A stretch of 43,680 nucleotides of DNA, taken from assembly GCA_002706365.1 (NCBI GenBank), contig PALM01000006.1:1-43680 (forward strand), read 5' to 3'. Under the pieces are notes generated by a model. The model saw only the letters and a program-made list of their open reading frames with translations. It ran no database searches and had not been told where the DNA came from. Of this stretch, positions 1-22,043 are shown in pieces; position 1 is the stretch's first letter, and every line of letters starts with the position of its first letter. A program made the translations under genes and the position numbers. This stretch comes from Flavobacteriales bacterium (GTDB lineage Bacteria > Bacteroidota > Bacteroidia > Flavobacteriales_E > Vicingaceae).

Positions 1-240
1 CGCTAGCAACCAGCAAGCATTGGCTGGAATCTTAAAATTGCAGCTACCGATCAGATATGTTAGCCGCCTTGGGGCGACGAGCGCTTTCTGATGGCGGCGT
101 ATCGGTGGCATAGCACTACCATATGCGGCAAAAGCGACTAAGCCCTTATGGGCTTAATGAAATGATCTTTAGAAACGGGGTGGAAGTGGACCGCCGAAGG
201 GCGGGAAACAGCCCATGCGGTATGGCCAGTGTTAGCAGCT
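1..240 (-). repeat. attC-like recombination site of cassette 1 (partial)
   Basis: This is the site that follows the 224-aa gene. On the gene-sense strand it starts at the arm AGCTGCTAAC (240-231), directly after the stop codon, then continues with the conserved CACTGGC and a CATGGGCTG block. A variable hairpin follows (CCGCC..GGCGG, around 190-205). Shorter blocks such as TGGCTGGAATCTTAAAATTGC (21-41) are shared with the other copies. The far end, with the closing G|TT junction, lies outside the window. Confidence 0.65.
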
Positions 241-241
241 G

Positions 242-916
242 TTATTTTATCATTCTTTTTTGGTTGCCTTGATTCATGAGTTCCCAAACATCATTCATTA
301 GTTGTAAATTCTTTAAATCATTCTTGAATGTCCAATCAAGAATCTCATTCTTATATTTCCTTTTTAGTGTACTTGAAAAGACTAATTCCTTACCAGTTGA
401 TTTGTACTCTTCAACGGTAGGGAAATAAACCTTACCAATGTCCTTTCTGCCAGCGTTTAGGATTATATGAAAATGTGGTAGACCGTGTTCATTTCTGCCT
501 AGACCTGCATCAGAACCACCTCTAATGTCTAAATAGAAGTTAGAAAAATCTAATGCGCTAATCCTTTTTAAGGCAACCAAAAAAGAATTTTGATCTGGCT
601 TATATACCCGAACTCCTTCTTTAGTTGGGGCATCAAATAAAATCAATGATTTTACAGTGCCTTCTTTGATAAATTCAAAGCCTTCAATAATTGCATATTT
701 AACATACCAATCACCTGCTTTGAATTTTTGGTTTGGAACTCTTATTTCACCATGAATGGGTAGCATTACTTGGAAGGTTTCCCGAATGATCCCTTTTATT
801 TTAAGATCATTTTTTGCCTTTAATTCCGAAGTGATTAAAGGCAACTCAGGGTTCTCTATTTTACCTTCAATTGTGCCATCATCATTGATTTTAAAATCTG
901 ATAGCGATATTTCCAT
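242..916 (-). CDS. Cassette 1: unknown 224-aa protein
   Basis: Unrecognised protein of 224 residues. There is no signal peptide and no membrane segment. The only distinctive motif is a histidine-rich stretch, EHGLPHFHI, near residue 143, followed by a charged C-terminal helix region. It weakly recalls the 'PPHFH' signature of DUF4160-type proteins, but the rest does not clearly match. The start ATG is only about 16 bases after the cassette boundary and the stop codon is 1 base before the attC arm, so the gene fills its cassette exactly. There is no room for a promoter inside the cassette, so transcription must come from the preceding attC-like site or further upstream. Function unknown; coding is likely because the ORF is long and fits the cassette limits. 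Confidence 0.75.
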   Translation of the reverse strand: MEISLSDFKINDDGTIEGKIENPELPLITSELKAKNDLKIKGIIRETFQVMLPIHGEIRVPNQKFKAGDWYVKYAIIEGFEFIKEGTVKSLILFDAPTKEGVRVYKPDQNSFLVALKRISALDFSNFYLDIRGGSDAGLGRNEHGLPHFHIILNAGRKDIGKVYFPTVEEYKSTGKELVFSSTLKRKYKNEILDWTFKNDLKNLQLMNDVWELMNQGNQKRMIK

Positions 917-926
917 AAGTAATAGC

Positions 927-1236
927 TGCTAACGGTCCAGGCTAAAAGCCGTGGGCCTACGTTTTTTGATTTGGAAACTAAAGATAGCGAAAGCCAGCCA
1001 AGCTAGCAGCAGAGATAGCTGGAATCTTAAAATTGCAGCAAGCCTTAGCTTCACAGAGGCCGCCTTGGGGTTGGCCTTAGCGTTTAATGTGGCGGCAAGC
1101 TTAATGTGAAAAGCCAAACTCTGGCTGAGCGGCTCGTGGCCTTTGGCCACTTTACGTTTTGGATCTTAAAAGTAGAATTGAGCGACCTGCCGGCTGGCGG
1201 GGAGCAGCCCATGGTTTTTAGCCAGTGTTAGGCGCA
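927..1236 (-). repeat. attC-like recombination site of cassette 2
   Basis: About 310 bp. On the gene-sense strand it begins with arm TGCGCCTAAC (1236-1227) and ends with the G|TT junction at 933/932. The ends form a long imperfect stem: GGCTAAAAACCATGGGC near 1225-1208 pairs with GCCCACGGCTTTTAGCC near 957-940, with unpaired bases between arm and stem. Inside are a GTGGCC-AAA-GGCCAC hairpin (around 1134-1151) and a variable hairpin next to the stem. It is roughly 85% identical by eye to the cassette 4 site. Open frames across it (for example 929-1150) are by-products of the repeat. Confidence 0.7.
979..986 (-). promoter_or_regulatory. Position-conserved TATCTTTA inside attC of cassette 2
   Basis: On the gene-sense strand TATCTTTA fits the Bacteroidota -7 pattern TAnnTTTG except for the last base. 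It lies 46 bases before the G|TT junction and about 63 before the start codon of cassette 1. The same relative position holds TACTTTTA in the cassette 3 site and TATCTTTA in the cassette 4 site. No good -33 element is seen at the usual spacing, so this is a candidate promoter for the next cassette, not an established one. Confidence 0.35.
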
Positions 1237-1237
1237 G

Positions 1238-1615
1238 TTATTTTAATTCTTCGAAGAGCTTATTATTATAGAAAATCTTTATTGAATGGACTTTACTTGA
1301 TTTAACCTCATCAATCTCCCAAGTTCGTTCCATATTTAATTGTGATTTTTTAGGAATATCAACTAATTCTACTTCTATATACAATTGATCATTTATAAAG
1401 AAAAACAGCCCATTGAGCTTTCCGGGAGGTTCGTCAGCCCATGCAACTTCTGTGTCATATGACGAAAGTTGTTCGACTAATTCATTTAATTCTTTACCAA
1501 TCAATTGTTCCTCAGCAAATGATTTTTGAATTTGATTTCTGAGTTCAATTGAATCTTGAGAATATGACAAGGAGCATGTTATAGAAGTCAATAATAGAAG
1601 TATAATTTTTCTCAT
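1238..1615 (-). CDS. Cassette 2: small exported protein of unknown function
   Basis: A 125-residue protein starting with a Sec signal peptide: Lys/Arg start, hydrophobic core LLLLTSITCSL, and a cleavage region SYSQ-DS near residue 20 that is typical for Bacteroidota. The mature part of about 105 residues is acidic and rich in Glu, Leu and Lys. A possible helical N-terminal half is followed by alternating hydrophobic residues suggesting beta strands. No family recognised. The start lies about 17 bases after the cassette boundary (1631) and the stop TAA is directly followed by the attC arm, so the gene fills the cassette. As an exported cassette product it probably acts in the periplasm or outside the cell; this is inference from the signal peptide only. 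Confidence 0.75.
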   Translation of the reverse strand: MRKIILLLLTSITCSLSYSQDSIELRNQIQKSFAEEQLIGKELNELVEQLSSYDTEVAWADEPPGKLNGLFFFINDQLYIEVELVDIPKKSQLNMERTWEIDEVKSSKVHSIKIFYNNKLFEELK

Positions 1616-1625
1616 TATAAATTGC

Positions 1626-1921
1626 GCCTAACGGTCCAGGCTATACACAGTTGGCTACGCCTGAACATTATTTCCCTTAAAAGTAGCGAATGCCGCGCAA
1701 GATTAGCCGAAAAATGGCTGGAATTTAAATTGCACCAACCCTAGCAGCCAGAAAAAAGCCGCCCTTGGGCGGATATGGCTGCGATAAGCGGCTTTCCCTG
1801 AGTTAAAATACCAGACTAGCGGCAGAGCGGTTACTTTTAAACGCGATGTTTTTTTAGGAGAAAACTGAACCGCCCGACCTTTGGCGGGCGGGCCAATTGG
1901 GTATAGCCAGTGTTGTTCGCC
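1626..1921 (-). repeat. attC-like recombination site of cassette 3
   Basis: About 295 bp. On the sense strand it begins with arm GGCGAACAAC (1921-1912) and ends with the G|TT junction at 1632/1631. Its sequence is much more diverged from the other copies, but it keeps CACTGGCTATA near the start and TAGCCTGGACCG at the end. The variable hairpin is here a strong GC stem, CCGCCCGCC pairing with GGGCGG around 1870-1893. A second hairpin (GCCGCCCTTGGGCGG-like) lies near 1768-1783. A TACTTTTA (1678-1685) sits 46 bases before the junction. The divergence shows that structure is kept better than sequence. Confidence 0.65.
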
Positions 1922-2099
1922 GTTCTTTTTTTTTAATTGCAGCGTAGCTAGCAAATAGATCCAGAGATAGAAACTCAAAAAGATGATTGCTAGATCTAGC
2001 TGACCTGACTTTATTATAAAAAATAGCTAGCTAAAAGCTGCAGACTTCAGAAGTGGCAGTGCTGTTAGTAAACAGCACAACTATAGGAATGGCGAACAA
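1922..2099 (-). other. Cassette 3 payload: no convincing gene, strong hairpins
   Basis: About 180 bp between the cassette boundary (2099) and its attC arm. I find no ATG-started ORF of useful length on either strand. On the sense strand there is a perfect 8-bp hairpin GTGCTGTT-TACT-AACAGCAC (about 2060-2079), the 12-bp palindrome GCTAGATCTAGC (1988-1999), and an A/T-rich TAGCTAGC stretch. A non-ATG frame would encode a short hydrophobic stretch (AIIFLSFYLWIYLLATL) followed by lysines, starting at a TTG at 1978 and running into the attC site. The unit may encode a small RNA, a tiny membrane peptide, or nothing. Confidence 0.4.
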
Positions 2100-2401
2100 C
2101 GGTCCAGGCTAAAAGCCGTGGGCCGCGTATTGTTTTGTTTGGAAACTAAAGATAGCGAAAGCCAGCCAGCCTAGCAGCAGAGATAGCTGGAATCTTAAAA
2201 TGGCAACGAACCTTAGCTTAACAGAGGCCGCCTCTGGGTTTGGCCTTAGCGTTTAATGTGGCGGCTAGCTTAATGTGAAAAGCCATACCCTGGCTGGAGC
2301 GGCTCGTGGCCGTTGGCCACTTTGAGAATGGATCTTATAAAACGTAATTCAGGCGCGAGCTTCGAGCGCCAGCCCATGGTTTTTAGCCAGTGTTAGCGTG
2401 C
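2094..2401 (-). repeat. attC-like recombination site of cassette 4
   Basis: About 308 bp. On the sense strand it begins with arm GCACGCTAAC (2401-2392) after the toxin stop codon and ends with the G|TT junction at 2100/2099. The terminal stem is the same as in the cassette 2 site. The variable hairpin is GGCGC-TCGAAGCTC-GCGCC (about 2371-2389), and the inner hairpin is GTGGCC-AAC-GGCCAC (about 2307-2321). The loops and hairpin arms differ from the cassette 2 site while pairing is kept, which points to selection on structure. TATCTTTA lies at 2147-2154. Confidence 0.7.
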
Positions 2402-2408
2402 GATTTTT

Positions 2409-2678
2409 TTATTTAGGGAAGTACTTGTAGATATCCTTGCGGTGAAGACATCTGATAAGAGTGATTTTGCCTTCTTGCAATTCTAAGCCGATTCTGTAAT
2501 CTCCAATACGAATTCGATAAAGGCTTTCCTCTCCTGCAAGTTTTTTAATGCTGGAAATCTGATCTATAGAATCATTTTTTTGGAGTTTTTCAATGAGTTT
2601 GAGAACTCTCTTGTTTAGACTTGGGTCTTTTTGCTTTTTAATGTCCTTTTCGAAGGACTTATCAACTTGCAAAATCAC
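2409..2678 (-). CDS. RelE/ParE-family toxin, cassette 4
   Basis: An 89-residue protein with the RelE/ParE fold pattern: an N-terminal beta strand (ILQVDKSFEKDIKK), two helices (LNKRVLKLIEKLQK), then the family signature KKLAGEESLYRIRIGDYRIGLEL and a final strand with LIRCLHRKDIYKYFPK. The R-x-R-x-GDYRIG element and the terminal 'HR..IYKYF' block are standard for mRNA-cleaving RelE toxins. It overlaps the upstream antitoxin gene by 17 bases, implying coupled translation. Toxin-antitoxin pairs are common in integron cassettes, where they stabilise arrays. Here the pair occupies the cassette nearest the recombinase. Family assignment is firm; the cellular target is inferred. Confidence 0.9.
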   Translation of the reverse strand: MILQVDKSFEKDIKKQKDPSLNKRVLKLIEKLQKNDSIDQISSIKKLAGEESLYRIRIGDYRIGLELQEGKITLIRCLHRKDIYKYFPK

Positions 2679-2871
2679 TCTTCAAGCCTTTGATGAAATT
2701 GTCTGTATCGGAAAGCTTACCAGTTTTACCTTCTTTGATTGCAGCAACCATTGCGATCTCTTCAGTTGCTTTTTCAGACAATACAGAGACCTCTACACCA
2801 AGTTTTTTAGCAAGTTTGATGAGCAAATTCAGGTTTTCTTTAGACTTAGCTTTTAATAGAATTGTGTCCAT
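2662..2871 (-). CDS. Antitoxin partner of the RelE-type toxin
   Basis: A 69-residue protein immediately upstream of, and overlapping by 17 bases, the RelE-type toxin gene. It begins with a short strand (DTILLKAKSKENLNLLIKLAKKLGVEVSVLS), then an acidic central part and a C-terminal amphipathic segment (TDNFIKGLKSDF) suited to binding the toxin. This layout is usual for small Bacteroidota antitoxins of the type annotated DUF2683 or RelB-like; I cannot pick the family with certainty. The gene has its own promoter inside the cassette (2888-2895), as expected for an autonomous toxin-antitoxin cassette. Confidence 0.85.
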   Translation of the reverse strand: MDTILLKAKSKENLNLLIKLAKKLGVEVSVLSEKATEEIAMVAAIKEGKTGKLSDTDNFIKGLKSDFAS

Positions 2872-2887
2872 GACACTAAAGTTTATT

Positions 2888-2895
2888 CAAAGGTA
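2888..2895 (-). promoter_or_regulatory. Bacteroidota -7 element of the toxin-antitoxin cassette
   Basis: The sense strand reads TACCTTTG, a perfect TAnnTTTG, with TTG about 21 bases upstream as a -33 candidate. It lies 17 bases before the antitoxin ATG, so the transcript would have a leader of about 10 bases. The promoter is inside the cassette and would move with it. Confidence 0.6.
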
Positions 2896-2939
2896 ATCAA
2901 TCTTAATATACCGCAATTACCTTATCGATTGCACGCTAA

Positions 2940-3049
2940 CTCGTTTCTATCCCAATCGATTGTTGGGGTTAACAACTCTTGAGGAGTGTTATCCAAACAA
3001 TTGCTTTGGTTTTATAACGAGCCATTGATTTTTGATTAATAATTACCTT
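2940..3049 (-). other. Putative attI-like attachment site between recombinase and first cassette
   Basis: A 110-bp non-coding stretch between the recombinase stop codon and the first cassette junction, whose sense-strand sequence is ACGAG|TTAGCG. It contains the 10-bp palindrome CAATCGATTG (2953-2962) and an ACTC-CTCAA-GAGT mini-hairpin. CTCGTTA and AACGAG form inverted arms about 75 bases apart. CAATCGAT recurs just inside cassette 4 (2924-2931). By position this would be the insertion site for new cassettes; no experimental support can be seen. Confidence 0.4.
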
Positions 3050-4219
3050 CTAATCTACGTCTTTTCCGGCATCTTTCATAATCCGATCCAGTGGATTTTC
3101 TACCGAGTTGATATCCTGTTCATTCAAATGAATATAGATCTGCGTGGTCTTGGTGCTGGCATGCCCCAAGATCTCTTTCAACAGATATACACTGCCGCCA
3201 TTGCTGATGATATGCGTGGCAAAACTATGCCTTAAGGTGTGAGCGGTCACATGCTTCTTGATGCCGGCTATCATACAAGCTCGCTTTATGATGTTGTTGA
3301 CGGAAGTGGCGCTGTACGGACCGCCAAACTGCCCTTCCAACACAAACTCCCTTGGATTATAGCGCTTCAAATAGCGTAAGTACATTTCCTTTAAACTCTT
3401 TGGAAAGGGAACCAAGCGGTCTTTTCTTCCTTTTCCAATTTTTACATGTACCACCATCCGATCCAGATCAATGTCGCGCTGCTTAAGCTTTGTAGCATCA
3501 CCCACCCGTAAACCGCAACCATAAATCAGCTTTAAGGTGAATTCATGCTTTAGATTATTGGTGCACTCAAATAGCTCCATTACTTCCTCCTTCGACAAGA
3601 CCTCGGGTAGCTTTTTACTTCTTCTAACCTTAGGAACATCGCTAAACTCCCGATCTTCTCCATGCACATACTTATAAAATAGCTTCAAGGCGCCGATCAA
3701 TTGCCTCTGGTAGACTTCCGAATACCCACTGGGCAAGACTACATCATTCATATAATTCACCAGATCGTCATCTGTTAGCTCTTCGCTTTTCTGAAGCTTG
3801 TAGTAGGTAAAATAGCGCTTCAAAATGCTCAAATAGCTCTTGAAAGTGCTAGCGCTATATCTTTTGGCACGCATCTTTCTCACGTAGACATCCAATTCCT
3901 CGGCTATCTGCTCGCTGAGGTCAACCTCATAATGATACTTCTGATTGACTATCTTCTCAACTTGCTTCTGCTTGAATCGTCGGATGTCTACCCAGGCTTC
4001 TCCTCGAAATACTTGAAGGATCTTTTCAAAATTCTCTTCATTGTAGTCTAAATACCAAATTCCCTGATGCTTACCCCAAATCGCTCCAATTCGCTTGCAG
4101 ATCTTTGTTAGAATTTTATCATAATCGAACTCTAAACCAATATATCGCTTGCCTTTGTGCTCCAAAGGAATGGCAATGATCTGCTTTGAGAATGATCCAA
4201 AGCCTTTCTTTGTCTCCAT
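3050..4219 (-). CDS. Tyrosine recombinase adjacent to the cassette array
   Basis: A 389-residue site-specific recombinase. Catalytic residues are all visible: Arg238 (GCGLRVGDA), the beta-hairpin Lys266 (GKGRKDR), His327-x-x-Arg330 (HTLRHSF), His353 (LGHAS) and the nucleophile Tyr362 (TTQIYIHL). Residues about 103-190 form the SAM-like DNA-binding domain. An extra N-terminal domain (about 12-85, with IGLEFDYD, GAIWGKHQGIWYLD) is seen in many Bacteroidota recombinases. The roughly 20-35-residue insertion between the catalytic lysine region and the HxxR box that marks integron integrases (IntI) is absent; the spacing is that of XerC/D. The C-terminal NPLDRI recalls the 'SPLD' end of IntI. It is transcribed toward the cassettes, unlike most integrons. 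Probably catalyses cassette insertion and excision; that role is inferred from context. Confidence 0.9.
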   Translation of the reverse strand: METKKGFGSFSKQIIAIPLEHKGKRYIGLEFDYDKILTKICKRIGAIWGKHQGIWYLDYNEENFEKILQVFRGEAWVDIRRFKQKQVEKIVNQKYHYEVDLSEQIAEELDVYVRKMRAKRYSASTFKSYLSILKRYFTYYKLQKSEELTDDDLVNYMNDVVLPSGYSEVYQRQLIGALKLFYKYVHGEDREFSDVPKVRRSKKLPEVLSKEEVMELFECTNNLKHEFTLKLIYGCGLRVGDATKLKQRDIDLDRMVVHVKIGKGRKDRLVPFPKSLKEMYLRYLKRYNPREFVLEGQFGGPYSATSVNNIIKRACMIAGIKKHVTAHTLRHSFATHIISNGGSVYLLKEILGHASTKTTQIYIHLNEQDINSVENPLDRIMKDAGKDVD

Positions 4220-16500: not shown

Positions 16501-19500
16501 CAATTGGTATTTGAACTCACACTGAAGGTATTCTGACTACCAAGTGCTGCATTTATAGTTATGGTATCCGGACTAGCAGATAAGTTGGCATTACTTGATG
16601 AGGTATAGGATGCATCCCATCCCTGATCCGTTACCGAAAGATCTGATGTAAACTCTACAAACATGGAGCCTGTAGTAGCTTGCAATACTGGTGGTGTTGC
16701 AGAGCCCGAGAATGTGCCCAATAAGGTTCCACCACTGCTTGTGCCATCATAAACCCTTACAAAGTCGAAACCTGTCTCTGTTCTGAAGTTATTGAAAGTT
16801 AAGCTTATGGTGATGGCTCCCGGAGGTTGGATCAACCAGCTACAATTCACATTATCCGTATAATTGGCTGTAGGACCGGACCCATCATCAAAAGAGCCAC
16901 TAGCAGCTGTTAGTGTAGTTTGTCCATTACAAGATGGTAGAGGTATCGATTGATAGCTACCTCTCCAACCATTTGCCGTAATACTATTATCTGTATTGAA
17001 AGTGATCAATAGATCTCCACCACTACTTGTGATAGTTGGAGGAATACTTGTTCCTGAGAAGCTTCCCAATATTGGGTCTGCAGTGGATGTTCCATCGTAA
17101 AAAGTTACGGTGTCGCTTCCCGCCTGAGTATTGAATTGCAAAAAGTTGAATCGTATCGCTTGATTGGCAAGTCCGGGTGAGATCTGCCATTGACAAGATG
17201 TATTGTTGAGGTAGTTTTGATTGAATGGAGATCCATCATTAATGAGACCATTTGGAGCTGTCAGCGTTGTATTTACCGAGCAAAAGGAAGCTGAAGAAGA
17301 ATAAGTTGCATCCCAACCTGCTGCAGTAGCTGAACCGTCGGTCGTGAACTCCAAGAACATACTTCCACTGAAGGCGGTAAGTGTGCCACCTGTATTATTG
17401 AAGAAGAAGGTGCCCAGAACAGTTCCGGAATTATTGCTTCCATCATATACCGTCACACGATCATTAAAGCCGGCTGTATTCATCGAATTGAAATTCAATG
17501 TGATTGAGGCCGGACTTCCGGGAGGTTGGATCAGCCAGCTACAGTTCAAACCATTGTCGTAGTTTGCCGAAGGCCCACTTCCATCATCAAAGCTACCGTT
17601 GGCGGCAGTTAAGGTAGTGGTACCAATACAAGAAAGACTAGATGTAATGGTATAGACTGCTTCAAAGCCTTGAGCAGTATTGCTAGCGTCTGTGATGAAT
17701 TCCACGAACATATCACCTCCAGTAGAGCTCACATTCGTTGGAAGGGCAGAACCGCTTAGACTTGCTATTCTCGGAGCTGTATTGTCTACTCCATCATAAA
17801 TGATCAAACTGTCACCTGGATTATCCAAATCGAATTGCAAGAAATTCAAGGTGATGCTTGTGGCTGTTGGTGGCTGGATTAACCAATTACAACTTAGATT
17901 ATTGCCATAATTCGCACTTCCACTTCCATCTCTTAATGTATCACTTGGATTTGTGAGTGTGCTATTACCGAAGCACTGACTATTAGTTGAATTATATGTA
18001 GCCTCCCAGCCAGTTGAGTTGCTGAAAGCATTGGAATTAAAAGTAACAAGCATAGTTCCACCAGAAGAACTCAAAGATGGCGGAAGGTTGGTTCCAGTAA
18101 ATGCGCCAAGTCTAGTAGCGGAAGTTGTGCTTCCATCATAAACTTTCACGGTATCGCCAAAATTTATGCTAAATCGATTGAACTGTAAGTTAATGAGATT
18201 AGCTGATGTTGGCTGGATCAACCAGCTACAATTACTGTTATCTACGTAGTTTCCACTCACAGGTGAACCATCGTCAAAAGTCCCACTTACTCCAGTTAGT
18301 GATGTTTGTCCAGCACAGAATGGAATTGGCTGAGTTTGATAGAAGCCTGAAAAGCCGTTAAATTGATTCGTTCCGTTTGATTTGAATGTGATCAACATCG
18401 ATCCTCCAGAAGAAGTAAATGGGTTTGAAGGTAATGTGCTTCCAGACACTGTAGCCAAAATTGGTGCGTTTGTGGTATTCCCATCGTAAATGGTAATCGT
18501 ATCATTATTCAATTCAGTGTTTAACTGACTAAATGTAAAGCGCACAGCTACATTACTGGCTACAGGTTGGATCAACCACGAGCAGTCTGTATTTGGAAGA
18601 TAATTTTGATTGAAAGGTGATCCGTCTGAAATGGATCCAAAATTGGCGGTAAGGGTTGAACTGCTCAGGCAAAAACTAGTCGATGAGTTGTAAGACACAC
18701 TCCATCCCGGACCAGTATTGAATCCATTAGTAGTGAATTCAAGGTACATTGCACCGCTGAAAGCAGTAAGTGTACCTCCGGTGAAAGTCCCACTTCTAGT
18801 CGCTAAAAGCGTACCTGTATTGTCGGTACCATCATATATCCTCACAAAATCTTGATTGAATCCTCCTACTAGATTAATACTATTGAAATCAAGGTTAATA
18901 ATTGCTGGATTTCCAGGAGGTTGGATCAACCAACCGCAGCTGAGATTATTATCATAGTTGAATGTGCCTGATCCATCTGTAAAGGATCCACTAGGTGCTG
19001 TAAGTGTATCTGTACCAGTACAACTTGGTCTTCTGTTTGAGGTATAGGTCAGATCCCAACCTGCATTATTTACCGTTCCATTGGTAACGAATTCAACAAA
19101 TGCGTCTATCGAAGTACCCGATACCACAGTTTGAGGTGGGATGCTGTTTCCTGAATAACTTGCTACAAGCGTACCTGTGTTATCAATTCCATTGTAAATA
19201 TTCACTACATCATTGGCGCTTTCCGTATCAAAAGCTGTAAAGTCGATCTTGATCGTATCTGCACGTGCTGGTTGAATAGACCATCCACAATTCAAATTGT
19301 CTTGGTAATTCAATGCATTACTTCCATCTGAGAAACTGCCACTATTCGCAGTAAAGAGCTGTGTGGGCAAACATTGTGTACTACTCGAATTATATCTTGC
19401 TTCAAATCCGGTAAAATTGATACTGAGGTCTGAAGTAAATCTCACCAACATAGTTCCGCTATTTGCGACTATGGTACTTGGAATTGAGCTTCCTGATAGT

Positions 19501-22043
19501 CGGGCTATTCTTGGTGCGGCTGTGGTTGAGCCGTCATATACTTCCACAAAATCGAAATTCCTTTCTGTGTCAAAACGATTGAAATCCAGCGTGATCAAAC
19601 TTGCTCCTGCAGGTTCAATTAGCCACTCGCAGCTACTAAAGCTTCCGTATAGAGATGTAGGTAAGGTTCCATCTGTAAATGTTCCACTTTGATTGCGAAG
19701 CGTATCGGCGCCGCTACATCCGCTTCTTCCCAACCAGCTTATTTGCCATCCTTCTGCATTGATAGTGGCATTGGTTTTAAACTCCACAAATGCATAGCGA
19801 CTGTTAAGTGTAAGGGTGGTAGCCTGACTGTTATCTGTGATGATTGTGGCTACTGGAGCTGTATTGTTCTGGCCTGCATAGATGATGATTGAATCATTTG
19901 TCGACTCTATATCCAAAGAATCAAACTTCAATTGAATGGTTGAAAGTGTACCATCGATTTGCCAGCTGCAGTTTAGATTATCGTTGTAATTCACTCCCGG
20001 ACCACTTCCGTCATCAAAAGTTCCACTTACTCCAGCAAGATTAGTCGTTCCACTACATCCGGTAGAAGGAGCGCTGGAAGTATAGCTCACTTCCCAACCT
20101 AGGGCAGTTGTTGATCCGTCGGTAATGAATTCTAAGAATAAGCTATTTCCAGTTGAGACTGCTGCTGGTGGAGCTGTGCTGCCGGTATATTTACCAATTA
20201 GACTTGCAGAGCTATTCGCTCCATCATAAATATATAATGTATCGCCACCACTGTCTAGGTCGAATCTATTGAAACTTAGATTAATTGGGCCGCTCGTTGG
20301 TTGGATTAACCAGCTGCAATTGAGATTATTGGCATAGGGTGTGCCTGTTCCGCTTCCATCATCAAAAGTGCTTGATGCAGCAGTTTGGTTTGAGTTTCCA
20401 CTACAAGTAACCACAGGAGCAGGACCAAAATCGAAACTCACTGTAGATCCTACTTCAGTGATATTTCGAAGTTGAAGACCTGTATTGGCATTGGTGTATG
20501 TTTTTGCATTCGGACTAGAAGAGTCGTCGAATGTAGAGTTGTTTGAGCTACCCGGGAATAGGTCTCCATTATCGCCGCGATTCACTTCATTGTCTAGATC
20601 ATTGTTTCCATCGGCTTCTTCAAGATCCACACCTTTCAAATTCTCATCGGCATTTACACTATTTCCAGGTGCATTGGTTTTATTGGTGTTGATATGCCAA
20701 ACTGCCAAGCCTTCACCCGGTAGTTCCACATCTAAGCCTTGCTTTTGTCTATTTTCTAACAGGAAATACTCATTTGCTAGAGCCGTATTGACCCTGTAGA
20801 TCTCATTTTGATTGCTCACTGATGGCTGCATCGTATAAGAACTACTATTGCCAATTGTAAGATTTGTTGGAGTTGCCCAACTGTTCTCTATTCGGCACCA
20901 AGCACTAAAGTTAGCAGGCCTGTGTTCTCCACCTAACCAGCCCCCGCCGGCCATTAAGCACCAGTTTCCTATACCCTCAGAATCTCCATTGCTATTGTCT
21001 GTGTCGTAGAGGTCGGGCAGTCCAATGTTATGTCCGAATTCATGACAGAACACACCAATCCCCACAAGATTTTGAGCAGCTCCGGCAGTTCTGATCTCTG
21101 GATTGATCATATAGTCGTTGATCAATTTTCCATCATAAGTCACTGCACCTAAACTCCCACCTGCTAGTACCCAGCGATGCGACCAAATATATTGTGTTCT
21201 TGAGCCTTGTTCAGCTCCTGGTCCGGCATGAACGGCTAAAATGCCATCAACTCTATTGTCGTTGTTGTTGTCGTAATTCGCAAAGTTTACACCTGCAGTT
21301 TCTGCTGCATCTACAGCTTCTCTCACTAAATCTGCCGCCCTGGAAGTTCCGCTATCCCTGCTGTAGTAGAGGTAGTTGTTTGCAGCTCTAAACCACCCTC
21401 TAACGTCAACATCAATTGTGATTGCACTATCTGAAGAAGTTTCATAGTAGTACTTAAAACTCCCATCTCCACTTCTATAGTTTGAGGCATACAATAAACT
21501 ATCGAAATTGCTTTTAGCGAATGTGCTTTGAAGGTTAGGATAGTCGATAAGCAAAGCCAAGACCCGAATATTTCCAGTTGTAGGGAAGGTCTTGCTTAAA
21601 ACGCGATTGCGAACCTGATTGAGAATCGACTGATTGAGTGGGCTAAGATTGGGTTTAGATGATTTTGGCAGGCTACTTACAAAAGTGTTTTCAGATGGCG
21701 TTCTATCGATTGGATCATGTGCTAATACTCCGCTTGGTACCAAATTCCCATTTACTTTATTTGCGTATTCATAAATGCCGTTGTTCAGTACAATAGTGTA
21801 TCCGTCTATGGTTTCAGTCCAATTGTTCACCATATTCCCTTTGCCAATTATGGTGATGGTAGTATTGTTAGGCTGATTGATTATGGTTGGATGCGGAGAT
21901 GCGGGACAGTTTGAAAATGGTGGAACATCTTCACTGAAGGGTACCGTTTGCTCAGTTGGGGTTTCTTCTAACTGAGTATCATTTTGTTGATCAACAGAGA
22001 AAAGGGATAAAGTGGATAGTAGTAGACTGTAAAATAGATTCAT
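13572..22043 (-). CDS. Giant secreted M6 metalloprotease with CUB and BACON repeats and T9SS tail
   Basis: A 2823-residue exported multidomain protein. After a signal peptide (about 1-18) and propeptide region comes an M6 (immune-inhibitor-A-like) zinc protease domain with HEFGHNIGLPD at about residue 332, giving the HExxHxxGxxD zinc site. From about 545 to 1812 I count 11 CUB-type domains, each opening with a Cys, then a [TS]FxDGS..NY..N..C.W signature. From about 1815 to 2730 are about 10 BACON-like domains, each with '[ST]..NW' and ending near 'DTV.V.Q'. The last 80 residues (SLKIYPNPARDLVIIEG ... GIYYLRYL) are a type A T9SS sorting domain. It should be carried across the outer membrane and act at the surface or outside, degrading proteins while the repeats bind glycans or proteins. 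Monocistronic, with a terminator downstream. Confidence 0.92.
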   Translation of the reverse strand: MNLFYSLLLSTLSLFSVDQQNDTQLEETPTEQTVPFSEDVPPFSNCPASPHPTIINQPNNTTITIIGKGNMVNNWTETIDGYTIVLNNGIYEYANKVNGNLVPSGVLAHDPIDRTPSENTFVSSLPKSSKPNLSPLNQSILNQVRNRVLSKTFPTTGNIRVLALLIDYPNLQSTFAKSNFDSLLYASNYRSGDGSFKYYYETSSDSAITIDVDVRGWFRAANNYLYYSRDSGTSRAADLVREAVDAAETAGVNFANYDNNNDNRVDGILAVHAGPGAEQGSRTQYIWSHRWVLAGGSLGAVTYDGKLINDYMINPEIRTAGAAQNLVGIGVFCHEFGHNIGLPDLYDTDNSNGDSEGIGNWCLMAGGGWLGGEHRPANFSAWCRIENSWATPTNLTIGNSSSYTMQPSVSNQNEIYRVNTALANEYFLLENRQKQGLDVELPGEGLAVWHINTNKTNAPGNSVNADENLKGVDLEEADGNNDLDNEVNRGDNGDLFPGSSNNSTFDDSSSPNAKTYTNANTGLQLRNITEVGSTVSFDFGPAPVVTCSGNSNQTAASSTFDDGSGTGTPYANNLNCSWLIQPTSGPINLSFNRFDLDSGGDTLYIYDGANSSASLIGKYTGSTAPPAAVSTGNSLFLEFITDGSTTALGWEVSYTSSAPSTGCSGTTNLAGVSGTFDDGSGPGVNYNDNLNCSWQIDGTLSTIQLKFDSLDIESTNDSIIIYAGQNNTAPVATIITDNSQATTLTLNSRYAFVEFKTNATINAEGWQISWLGRSGCSGADTLRNQSGTFTDGTLPTSLYGSFSSCEWLIEPAGASLITLDFNRFDTERNFDFVEVYDGSTTAAPRIARLSGSSIPSTIVANSGTMLVRFTSDLSINFTGFEARYNSSSTQCLPTQLFTANSGSFSDGSNALNYQDNLNCGWSIQPARADTIKIDFTAFDTESANDVVNIYNGIDNTGTLVASYSGNSIPPQTVVSGTSIDAFVEFVTNGTVNNAGWDLTYTSNRRPSCTGTDTLTAPSGSFTDGSGTFNYDNNLSCGWLIQPPGNPAIINLDFNSINLVGGFNQDFVRIYDGTDNTGTLLATRSGTFTGGTLTAFSGAMYLEFTTNGFNTGPGWSVSYNSSTSFCLSSSTLTANFGSISDGSPFNQNYLPNTDCSWLIQPVASNVAVRFTFSQLNTELNNDTITIYDGNTTNAPILATVSGSTLPSNPFTSSGGSMLITFKSNGTNQFNGFSGFYQTQPIPFCAGQTSLTGVSGTFDDGSPVSGNYVDNSNCSWLIQPTSANLINLQFNRFSINFGDTVKVYDGSTTSATRLGAFTGTNLPPSLSSSGGTMLVTFNSNAFSNSTGWEATYNSTNSQCFGNSTLTNPSDTLRDGSGSANYGNNLSCNWLIQPPTATSITLNFLQFDLDNPGDSLIIYDGVDNTAPRIASLSGSALPTNVSSTGGDMFVEFITDASNTAQGFEAVYTITSSLSCIGTTTLTAANGSFDDGSGPSANYDNGLNCSWLIQPPGSPASITLNFNSMNTAGFNDRVTVYDGSNNSGTVLGTFFFNNTGGTLTAFSGSMFLEFTTDGSATAAGWDATYSSSASFCSVNTTLTAPNGLINDGSPFNQNYLNNTSCQWQISPGLANQAIRFNFLQFNTQAGSDTVTFYDGTSTADPILGSFSGTSIPPTITSSGGDLLITFNTDNSITANGWRGSYQSIPLPSCNGQTTLTAASGSFDDGSGPTANYTDNVNCSWLIQPPGAITISLTFNNFRTETGFDFVRVYDGTSSGGTLLGTFSGSATPPVLQATTGSMFVEFTSDLSVTDQGWDASYTSSSNANLSASPDTITINAALGSQNTFSVSSNTNWTTSDNSAWMLANPINGNRNQNVTVIAVQPNIGPIRYGEVYVATTNNTIRDTVVVEQLSSGRYLIANPDTLFFQANPSGSQAINLVTNVNWSLNTTFPWITIGTNSGSNNGSSQINVTSSGGTQRVGYIVASGNLGVTNDTIFVKQAPAGILLSVDPSNITLAQAMGSTGNFTVNSNTDWQTSSPANWLSIQNPAVTSDTNTVGITTTSMNSQPGTRSSFVAVQDLAGTVFDTVFVTQLGGNLVLSANPDFVTLGANMGSSANSVLTSNVNWTATLDDPANYDVNPKSGNGNSSLLIEALTSNNFANPRNSFIVLEGANGAIRDTIFISQNGQPITLSANPKVVNLNQATNSVDSFRVTSNFSWNSTSPASWVSPNVTSFPVFGDTTIILTSTSANTTGPTRTTFMALQDILGSRFDTVIINQTGTNPILEANQDTVYLDGEIGSTANVTFLSNGVWTAVEGAPFFSSSLNTNSGNGNLILTANSDNNGPAARISYLALADVGQMLADTVVVIQDTIVISLDATPDTVVLASAAGSPGIISLNSTISWNASPAAAWFSLNQSNGIGNASITVTSTTANTNTADRFSEVVFTDVSDPLNTDTVVIQQEGVPLQLRVTPLAVNLNFLNGSNDVLDVTSSTSWTVTNPVSWLNLSASSGTGNASITVTANSDNLTGSIRLANLTFSAVGVPDVIVTVQQIDGTSPVFLFSRDTLYVDEIQGSTGTFTVLGNQASWSLSENTPWLLVNPTSGNNSADVTVLAATRNTFGNPRFGSIVGTASGFSNDTIVIVQRSSTPLFQAAPSALSLGSDSANTVFFNISSNLLSWTLNESTSWMEVSPDSGGFSQRIEVKATEDNNSGTVRSGLIQILSPPQVPLTITVTQDTVRAIGLSENNQSEASLKIYPNPARDLVIIEGVGIDRIDLSQLQLYSANGRLVSSNFVRRSANQIEIDLSSEAAGIYYLRYLHDDGILSKKIILLD

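Follow-up and report, generated by a model that had tools for sequence, protein, structure and literature searches.

A probable chromosomal integron-like system of Bacteroidota with a Xer-like integrase that lacks the IntI insertion

Introduction

The closest described counterparts of the locus considered here are the integrons, which combine an integrase (IntI), an attI site near its gene and an array of small cassettes whose attC sites are imperfect palindromes. Sites of class 1 integrons have an A at +1 and a C at -1. Two elements of IntI, alpha-I2 and beta-4,5, grip the extrahelical bases of the folded site (PMC3053210), and XerCD recombine the CTX-phi hairpin, which is without extrahelical bases (PMC4792948). 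According to IntegronFinder 2.0 a domain specific to IntI makes it easily distinguished, and for Bacteroidetes proper the accompanying survey names one complete integron, in Salinibacter (PMC9024848). Because integrons are recognized by that domain, systems of the type we describe would be missed. Smyshlyaev et al. (2021) distinguish a subgroup of "integron-like" simple tyrosine recombinases and note that conservation of the CAT insertion is incomplete in it (PMC8138268).

We analyzed a 43,680-nt stretch of DNA from a Flavobacteriales bacterium (contig PALM01000006.1; hereafter the window), in which a tyrosine recombinase gene adjoins what had been presumed, from the sequence alone, to be a cassette array.

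Results

The integrase

The gene (3050..4219, minus strand) is an intact ORF of 389 aa that encodes an integron-like integrase without I2. The predicted complete set of catalytic residues is there (R238, K263/K266, H327, R330, H353 and Y362), each invariant or nearly so among 17 relatives, and the predicted Xer-like spacing stands as well: K266 and H327 are 61 residues apart, compared with 61-62 in array-linked relatives, 61-69 in Xer proteins and 103-108 in canonical IntI. The best curated match of the enzyme is NF040815 XerA (204 bits, cut-off 220), followed by the integron integrase profile TIGR02249, to which it scores 191.5 bits against a cut-off of 265 in a match that is split into two stretches. 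A search of solved structures returned XerA (5HXY) first and VchIntIA (2A3V) second; the alignment to the latter is in two pieces, and IntI residues ~207-244 have no counterpart in the window enzyme. Foldseek with the whole protein also returned recombinases, with XerA and IntI4 on top, and was uninformative for the N-terminal domain. The spacing and the break in the comparison with Vibrio IntIA bear out the claim that the IntI insertion is missing, and the window integrase does not have the I2/beta4-5 insertion that membership of the IntI family entails.

The cassette array and the attI-like site

Four cassettes lie 3' of the integrase gene on the minus strand, each running from a GTT with seven specific nucleotides to the reverse complement of those seven followed by AAC. 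The pairs (2940/2392, 2100/1912, 1632/1227 and 933/231) form three successive links, and when these 3 kb were Markov-shuffled 1000 times not even one link arose, which rules out an array by chance and upholds the one that had been presumed.

Cassette 1 (2101..2940, minus strand) extends from GTTAGCGTGC (2931-2940) to GCACGCTAAC (2392-2401) and its attC-like folded site (2101..2391, minus strand). It bears a ParE-like toxin/antitoxin pair, in which the toxin ORF (ParE/RelE type, 2409..2678, minus strand, 89 aa) is the Pfam match (PF05016, 2.1e-7) and the putative antitoxin ORF upstream of it (2662..2871, minus strand, 69 aa) matched no family above cut-off. The body of cassette 2 (1633..2100, minus strand; GTTGTTCGCC to GGCGAACAAC, folded site 1633-1911), at 1922-2090, is without its own ORF of at least 60 aa. 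Cassette 3 (934..1632, minus strand; GTTAGGCGCA to TGCGCCTAAC, folded site 934-1226) has an ORF of 125 aa (1238-1615) with a signal-peptide-like start, and cassette 4 (1..933, minus strand; GTTAGCAGCT at 924-933 to AGCTGCTAAC at 231-240) has one of 224 aa (242-916). The cassette ORFs are co-directional with the integrase. Between AAC and the next GTT the folded sites measure 291, 279 and 293 nt, and the fourth (1-230) is cut by the contig end.

Two more sites of the window type are found elsewhere in the genome, one at L010 1220-1530 (G000:C35), which starts with GTTGCCAGCAAT and has an ORF behind it, and one at L007 ~1500-1545 (G000:C20); these are isolated cassettes or remnants distant from the integrase. 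Within the window, a region of repeats every ~350 nt (16700-20400, families D1-D4) probably encodes a long repetitive surface protein.

The attI-like site occupies the interval from the stop codon of the integrase to the first cassette (2938..3049, minus strand), and relatives diverge at its crossover triplet GTT (2938-2940), which in the window family lies ~36-110 nt past the stop codon. The stretch ending in this GTT just 3' of the gene is often a near-perfect palindrome, such as GGATATGACGCACAGAGTGCGTCATATCCACTT before GTT in L058; in the other form seen in relatives the GTT is preceded by TATAAACAA. Two loci from different genera (L041 and L042) share 414 nt at 100% identity, through the end of the integrase gene to AACAAGTT, and are unrelated thereafter. 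We compared 18 pairs of related loci: in 10 the alignment stops 0-3 nt past a GTT, and in 14 no more than 9 nt past one. Breakpoints at GTT are the mark that site-specific entry of cassettes would leave, and the locus has, as an integron does, an attI-like site that adjoins the integrase gene at the cassette entry point.

Folded sites that are mostly unbulged

Of 95 sites, 81 allow gapless pairing of two 18-nt arms. Watson-Crick pairing of the arms reaches 80%, compared with 32% (sd 1.5) when partners are shuffled, despite arm sequences that vary between sites, a contrast somewhat inflated because the arms were picked by maximum complementarity. AAC is followed by A in 100% of the sites, and GTT is preceded by C in 98%. 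The top strand has 126 mispairs in the order A.C and nine in the order G.T, mostly around two places; with both orders counted, A.C/C.A mispairs number 161 vs. 35 for G.T/T.G, and the former become G.T wobbles on the bottom strand, whose fold is the more stable one in 57 of 75 sites. In the three complete sites of the window the arms are gapless, with an A.C mispair at arm position 12 in all three and another at position 9 in two. Near-identical 120-nt sites recur next to different cassettes in different genera. The array is thus of the integron kind with respect to its imperfect, attC-type palindromes and its cassette-specific R boxes.

With respect to extrahelical bases on the bottom strand it is not. 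Scored with the same code, a one-base bulge is found in 36 of 37 classifiable sites from canonical IntI arrays of the same phylum (34 in the 5' arm), whereas 69 of 85 sites of the insertion-less family are unbulged and 16 were scored as bulged (Fisher 3e-17). The two elements with which IntI grips such bases, alpha-I2 and beta-4,5, are both part of the insertion that the window enzyme lacks. Because canonical sites are bulged and those of the family mostly are not, insertion and bulge are absent together. The original prediction held that another part of the enzyme must take over the grip; as worded this presumes that the gripped feature was kept, and it is not supported, the extrahelical base being mostly absent from the sites. 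A site that is built differently, nearer to a duplex mimic, is a more economical answer than a substitute grip.

Distribution of the family

Relatives at E 1e-50 occur in 30 of 46 genomes of the window's order, and 118 of 395 genomes in a sample of the phylum (~30%) match the family profile at 1e-60. Named hosts include Winogradskyella, Algoriphagus, Mesonia, Lutibacter, Psychroflexus, Cyclobacterium, Zunongwangia and a Chryseobacterium plasmid; on a plasmid of Chryseobacterium oryzae a copy of the integrase (L206 11980-13023) is directly followed by a VOC-family gene. Many metagenome-assembled copies have a contig end only a few hundred bases beyond the gene on its 3' side, a position that fits a repetitive array as neighbor.

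We applied a strict test, passed either by an exact GTT+7 complement close to the gene or by a chain link, to loci that have the N-terminal domain and 2 kb or more of downstream sequence. Arrays were detected downstream in 51 of 80 loci and upstream in one of 60, counts that are not independent since the loci are related by descent. Among the 29 negative loci are some that clearly have an attI, e.g., L042 and L045. Canonical IntI of the phylum served as a positive control: 14 of their 20 loci had upstream chains and none had downstream ones. The gene sits by arrays with folded sites in many genomes, contrary to the refuting case of a recombinase from a phage or transposon that is never a neighbor of such arrays. 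On the array and attI evidence we reject both a phage/transposon integrase and a plain Xer resolvase; the gene is patchy and array-linked, not a housekeeping recombinase that resolves chromosome dimers at dif.

The N-terminal domain

An AlphaFold2 model based on 33 relatives (mean pLDDT 86) confirms the additional domain that had been predicted at residues ~12-85: residues 12-83 (3971..4186, minus strand) form a beta-beta-alpha-beta-beta-alpha-beta domain with pLDDT 90-95 (92.5 when modeled alone), followed by a disordered linker (86-98) and, from residue 103, the core-binding and catalytic domains. The fold resembles the HARP/XPB-DRD kind, by matches that are individually weak. Of 27 members' N-terminal domains, seven match the DUF5710 profile (best 6e-5) and three the Pfam HARP profile (best 1.1e-3), and a profile search of the PDB gave SMARCAL1 (4O66) at E 0.88, ranked under unrelated entries. 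In a structural re-search the top rank went to the damage-recognition domains of XPB (Z 7.0, 2.1-2.2 A over 59-60 residues), a value in the range (Z < 8) that may reflect merely a common arrangement; Foldseek gave YciH/SUI1 as best match, with MutS-beta further down. No solved structure with this domain on a recombinase was found, Z being at most 7. The HARP domain, the XPB domain and the mismatch domain of MutS are alike in fold and bind nucleic acids in a structure-specific way, and because the weak matches to them agree, a DNA-structure-binding role for the N-terminal domain is plausible.

Relationship to IntI

In a maximum-likelihood tree of 99 proteins (core-binding and catalytic region, mostly empty columns removed, quick method), IntI forms one clade with support 100 outside the window family, which is intermixed with short recombinases. 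A clade of IntI and the array-bearing members that excludes the short recombinases is rejected (p 1e-4), in a test that also penalizes the nesting of short recombinases within the family, while a clade that joins the whole family to IntI, apart from Xer, is not rejected (p 0.78).

Discussion

We consider it very probable, from comparative evidence throughout, that the window holds a chromosomal integron-like system in which an insertion-less, Xer-derived recombinase moves folded-site cassettes into an attI at its 3' side, reading structure and not a bulge. The array, the position of attI and its breakpoints, the covarying hairpins, the absent insertion and the absent bulge were all computed directly. 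From them we infer catalysis on a folded single strand, the choice of the bottom strand and the role of the N-terminal domain as an auxiliary DNA contact. The recombinase would capture and excise circular gene cassettes by recombining, at the conserved GTT, the folded bottom strand of a cassette hairpin with the double-stranded attI that lies directly past its own stop codon. The hairpin would be recognized by its structure, i.e., by its paired arms, an unpaired spacer beside the core and the G.T mispairs of the bottom strand, and not via bulged bases of the kind that the I2/beta4-5 insertion of IntI grips. The N-terminal domain would add a structure-specific contact, common yet dispensable.

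Could the sites instead be double-stranded, as in Xer/pdif modules, with dif-like flanks and with inverted repeats that are two pairs of half-sites or transcription terminators? The Xer-like sequence of the enzyme, the genes flanked by inverted repeats and the near-perfect palindrome by the GTT in the attI of many relatives, which resembles a dif-type core, would all be accommodated. However, it is pairing that is kept in the arms and not their sequence (80% vs. 32%), the outer 7 nt are particular to each cassette and merely complementary, the mispairs have preferred places and a polarity, and the sites are 110-290 nt long, so that we regard double-stranded sites as improbable. We give still less credence to the idea that the arrays are driven by a canonical IntI from another locus of the cell and that the window gene is a bystander, either Xer or the integrase of a mobile element. 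Canonical IntI (TIGR02249 above cut-off) does occur in 105 of the 395 genomes of the phylum sample, but nothing in the window's own genome passes TIGR02249, and among the matches listed nearly all are outside the window's class, with only one genome of that class having a canonical IntI, whereas the window family is frequent in it. In addition, attI lies directly at the 3' end of the window gene, the breakpoints are there, and the sites differ in kind from canonical ones.

Is the N-terminal domain, then, the grip? That it truly replaces the I2 insertion and is required for recognition of folded sites would fit its association with arrays, which were detected downstream in 51 of 80 loci with the domain but in six of 40 without it (Fisher 3e-8), two of the six (L242 and L048) being frame-broken copies of the domain-bearing form. 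It would fit also the HARP/XPB-DRD/MutS-I type of fold, known for structure-specific DNA binding, although the structural matches are weak (best Z 7.0) and the best Foldseek match is of another kind. Against it, nine integrases that lack both the domain and the IntI insertion border arrays, five downstream (L180, L247, L252, L263 and L264) and four upstream (L261, L268, L269 and L270), and the sites of L270 (in L294) share the spacer and the double A.C mispair design of the window family. A strict requirement of the domain for arrays is rejected on these grounds, and replacement of the insertion by the domain seems to us unlikely. The suggestion of a substitute grip thus retains the array association and the weak HARP/XPB/MutS-type likeness, and fails where arrays border domain-less enzymes; because such enzymes exist, across the whole family the domain is auxiliary at most, although it could be essential in the lineages that carry it. 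The four with upstream arrays (upstream regions L288, L292, L293 and L294) are short Xer-type recombinases of 274-296 aa whose cassettes are placed, as in classical integrons, on the 5' side of the gene; these recombinases are possibly a further kind. L252, L263 and L264 are another group of short recombinases, with downstream arrays and sites that share a different pattern (AACGAGAAAAGAGACGCTCG... in L264 and L252).

A further question is which came first, the insertion or the folded-site cassette. Folded-site cassette recombination may predate I2, with insertion-less Xer-type integrases and unbulged sites as the ancestral state that gave rise to IntI and its bulged attC. We put this forward tentatively and with more doubt than confidence, since the tree equally allows two independent inventions. 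If true, it would settle the "chicken-egg" problem raised in the literature, namely how co-evolution of I2 and extrahelical bases could have come about (PMC4792948). In any case, one phylum with two integron designs, one with insertion and bulge and one without either, is a natural experiment on the reading of folded DNA that bears on this open question and makes the origin of the grip testable. Relatives in ~30% of the sampled genomes, many of them with arrays, would also make cassette capture of this kind widespread in Bacteroidota.

We found no description of such Bacteroidota systems in the open literature, a search with preprints and most subscription journals outside its range. In the available portion of Smyshlyaev et al. 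(2021), neither arrays nor unbulged sites nor the N-terminal domain are described for the "integron-like" subgroup (PMC8138268), and the likeness of that domain to those of SMARCAL1 (HARP, 4O66), XPB (damage recognition) and MutS (mismatch) is one of fold, with weak profile matches.

With the integron (IntI/attI/attC; VchIntIA, 2A3V; IntI1) the window system shares an integrase with a proximal attI and an array of small cassettes, imperfect palindromic sites with an AAC...GTT core that has A at +1 and C at -1, cassette-specific R boxes and a toxin-antitoxin cassette. It differs in that its enzyme lacks the I2/beta4-5 insertion, falls outside the IntI clade and has the N-terminal domain, in that its array lies 3' of the integrase and the integron's 5', and in that its type of site is unbulged with A.C/G.T mispairs and, in the window, very long (280-290 nt). 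The system appears to work like an integron, yet because insertion and extrahelical bases were looked for and are lacking, we do not file it under the IntI family. With XerA and XerC-XerD at dif (5HXY, 1A0P) it has in common the catalytic spacing, the best sequence matches and, in many relatives, a palindromic attI, and the attP hairpin of CTX-phi is a precedent for Xer recombining a folded strand without extrahelical bases. What sets the window enzyme apart from these recombinases is its own attI, its cassette array and its extra domain, in a genome that encodes two other Xer-like proteins (L002 and L003) which group with Xer in the tree.
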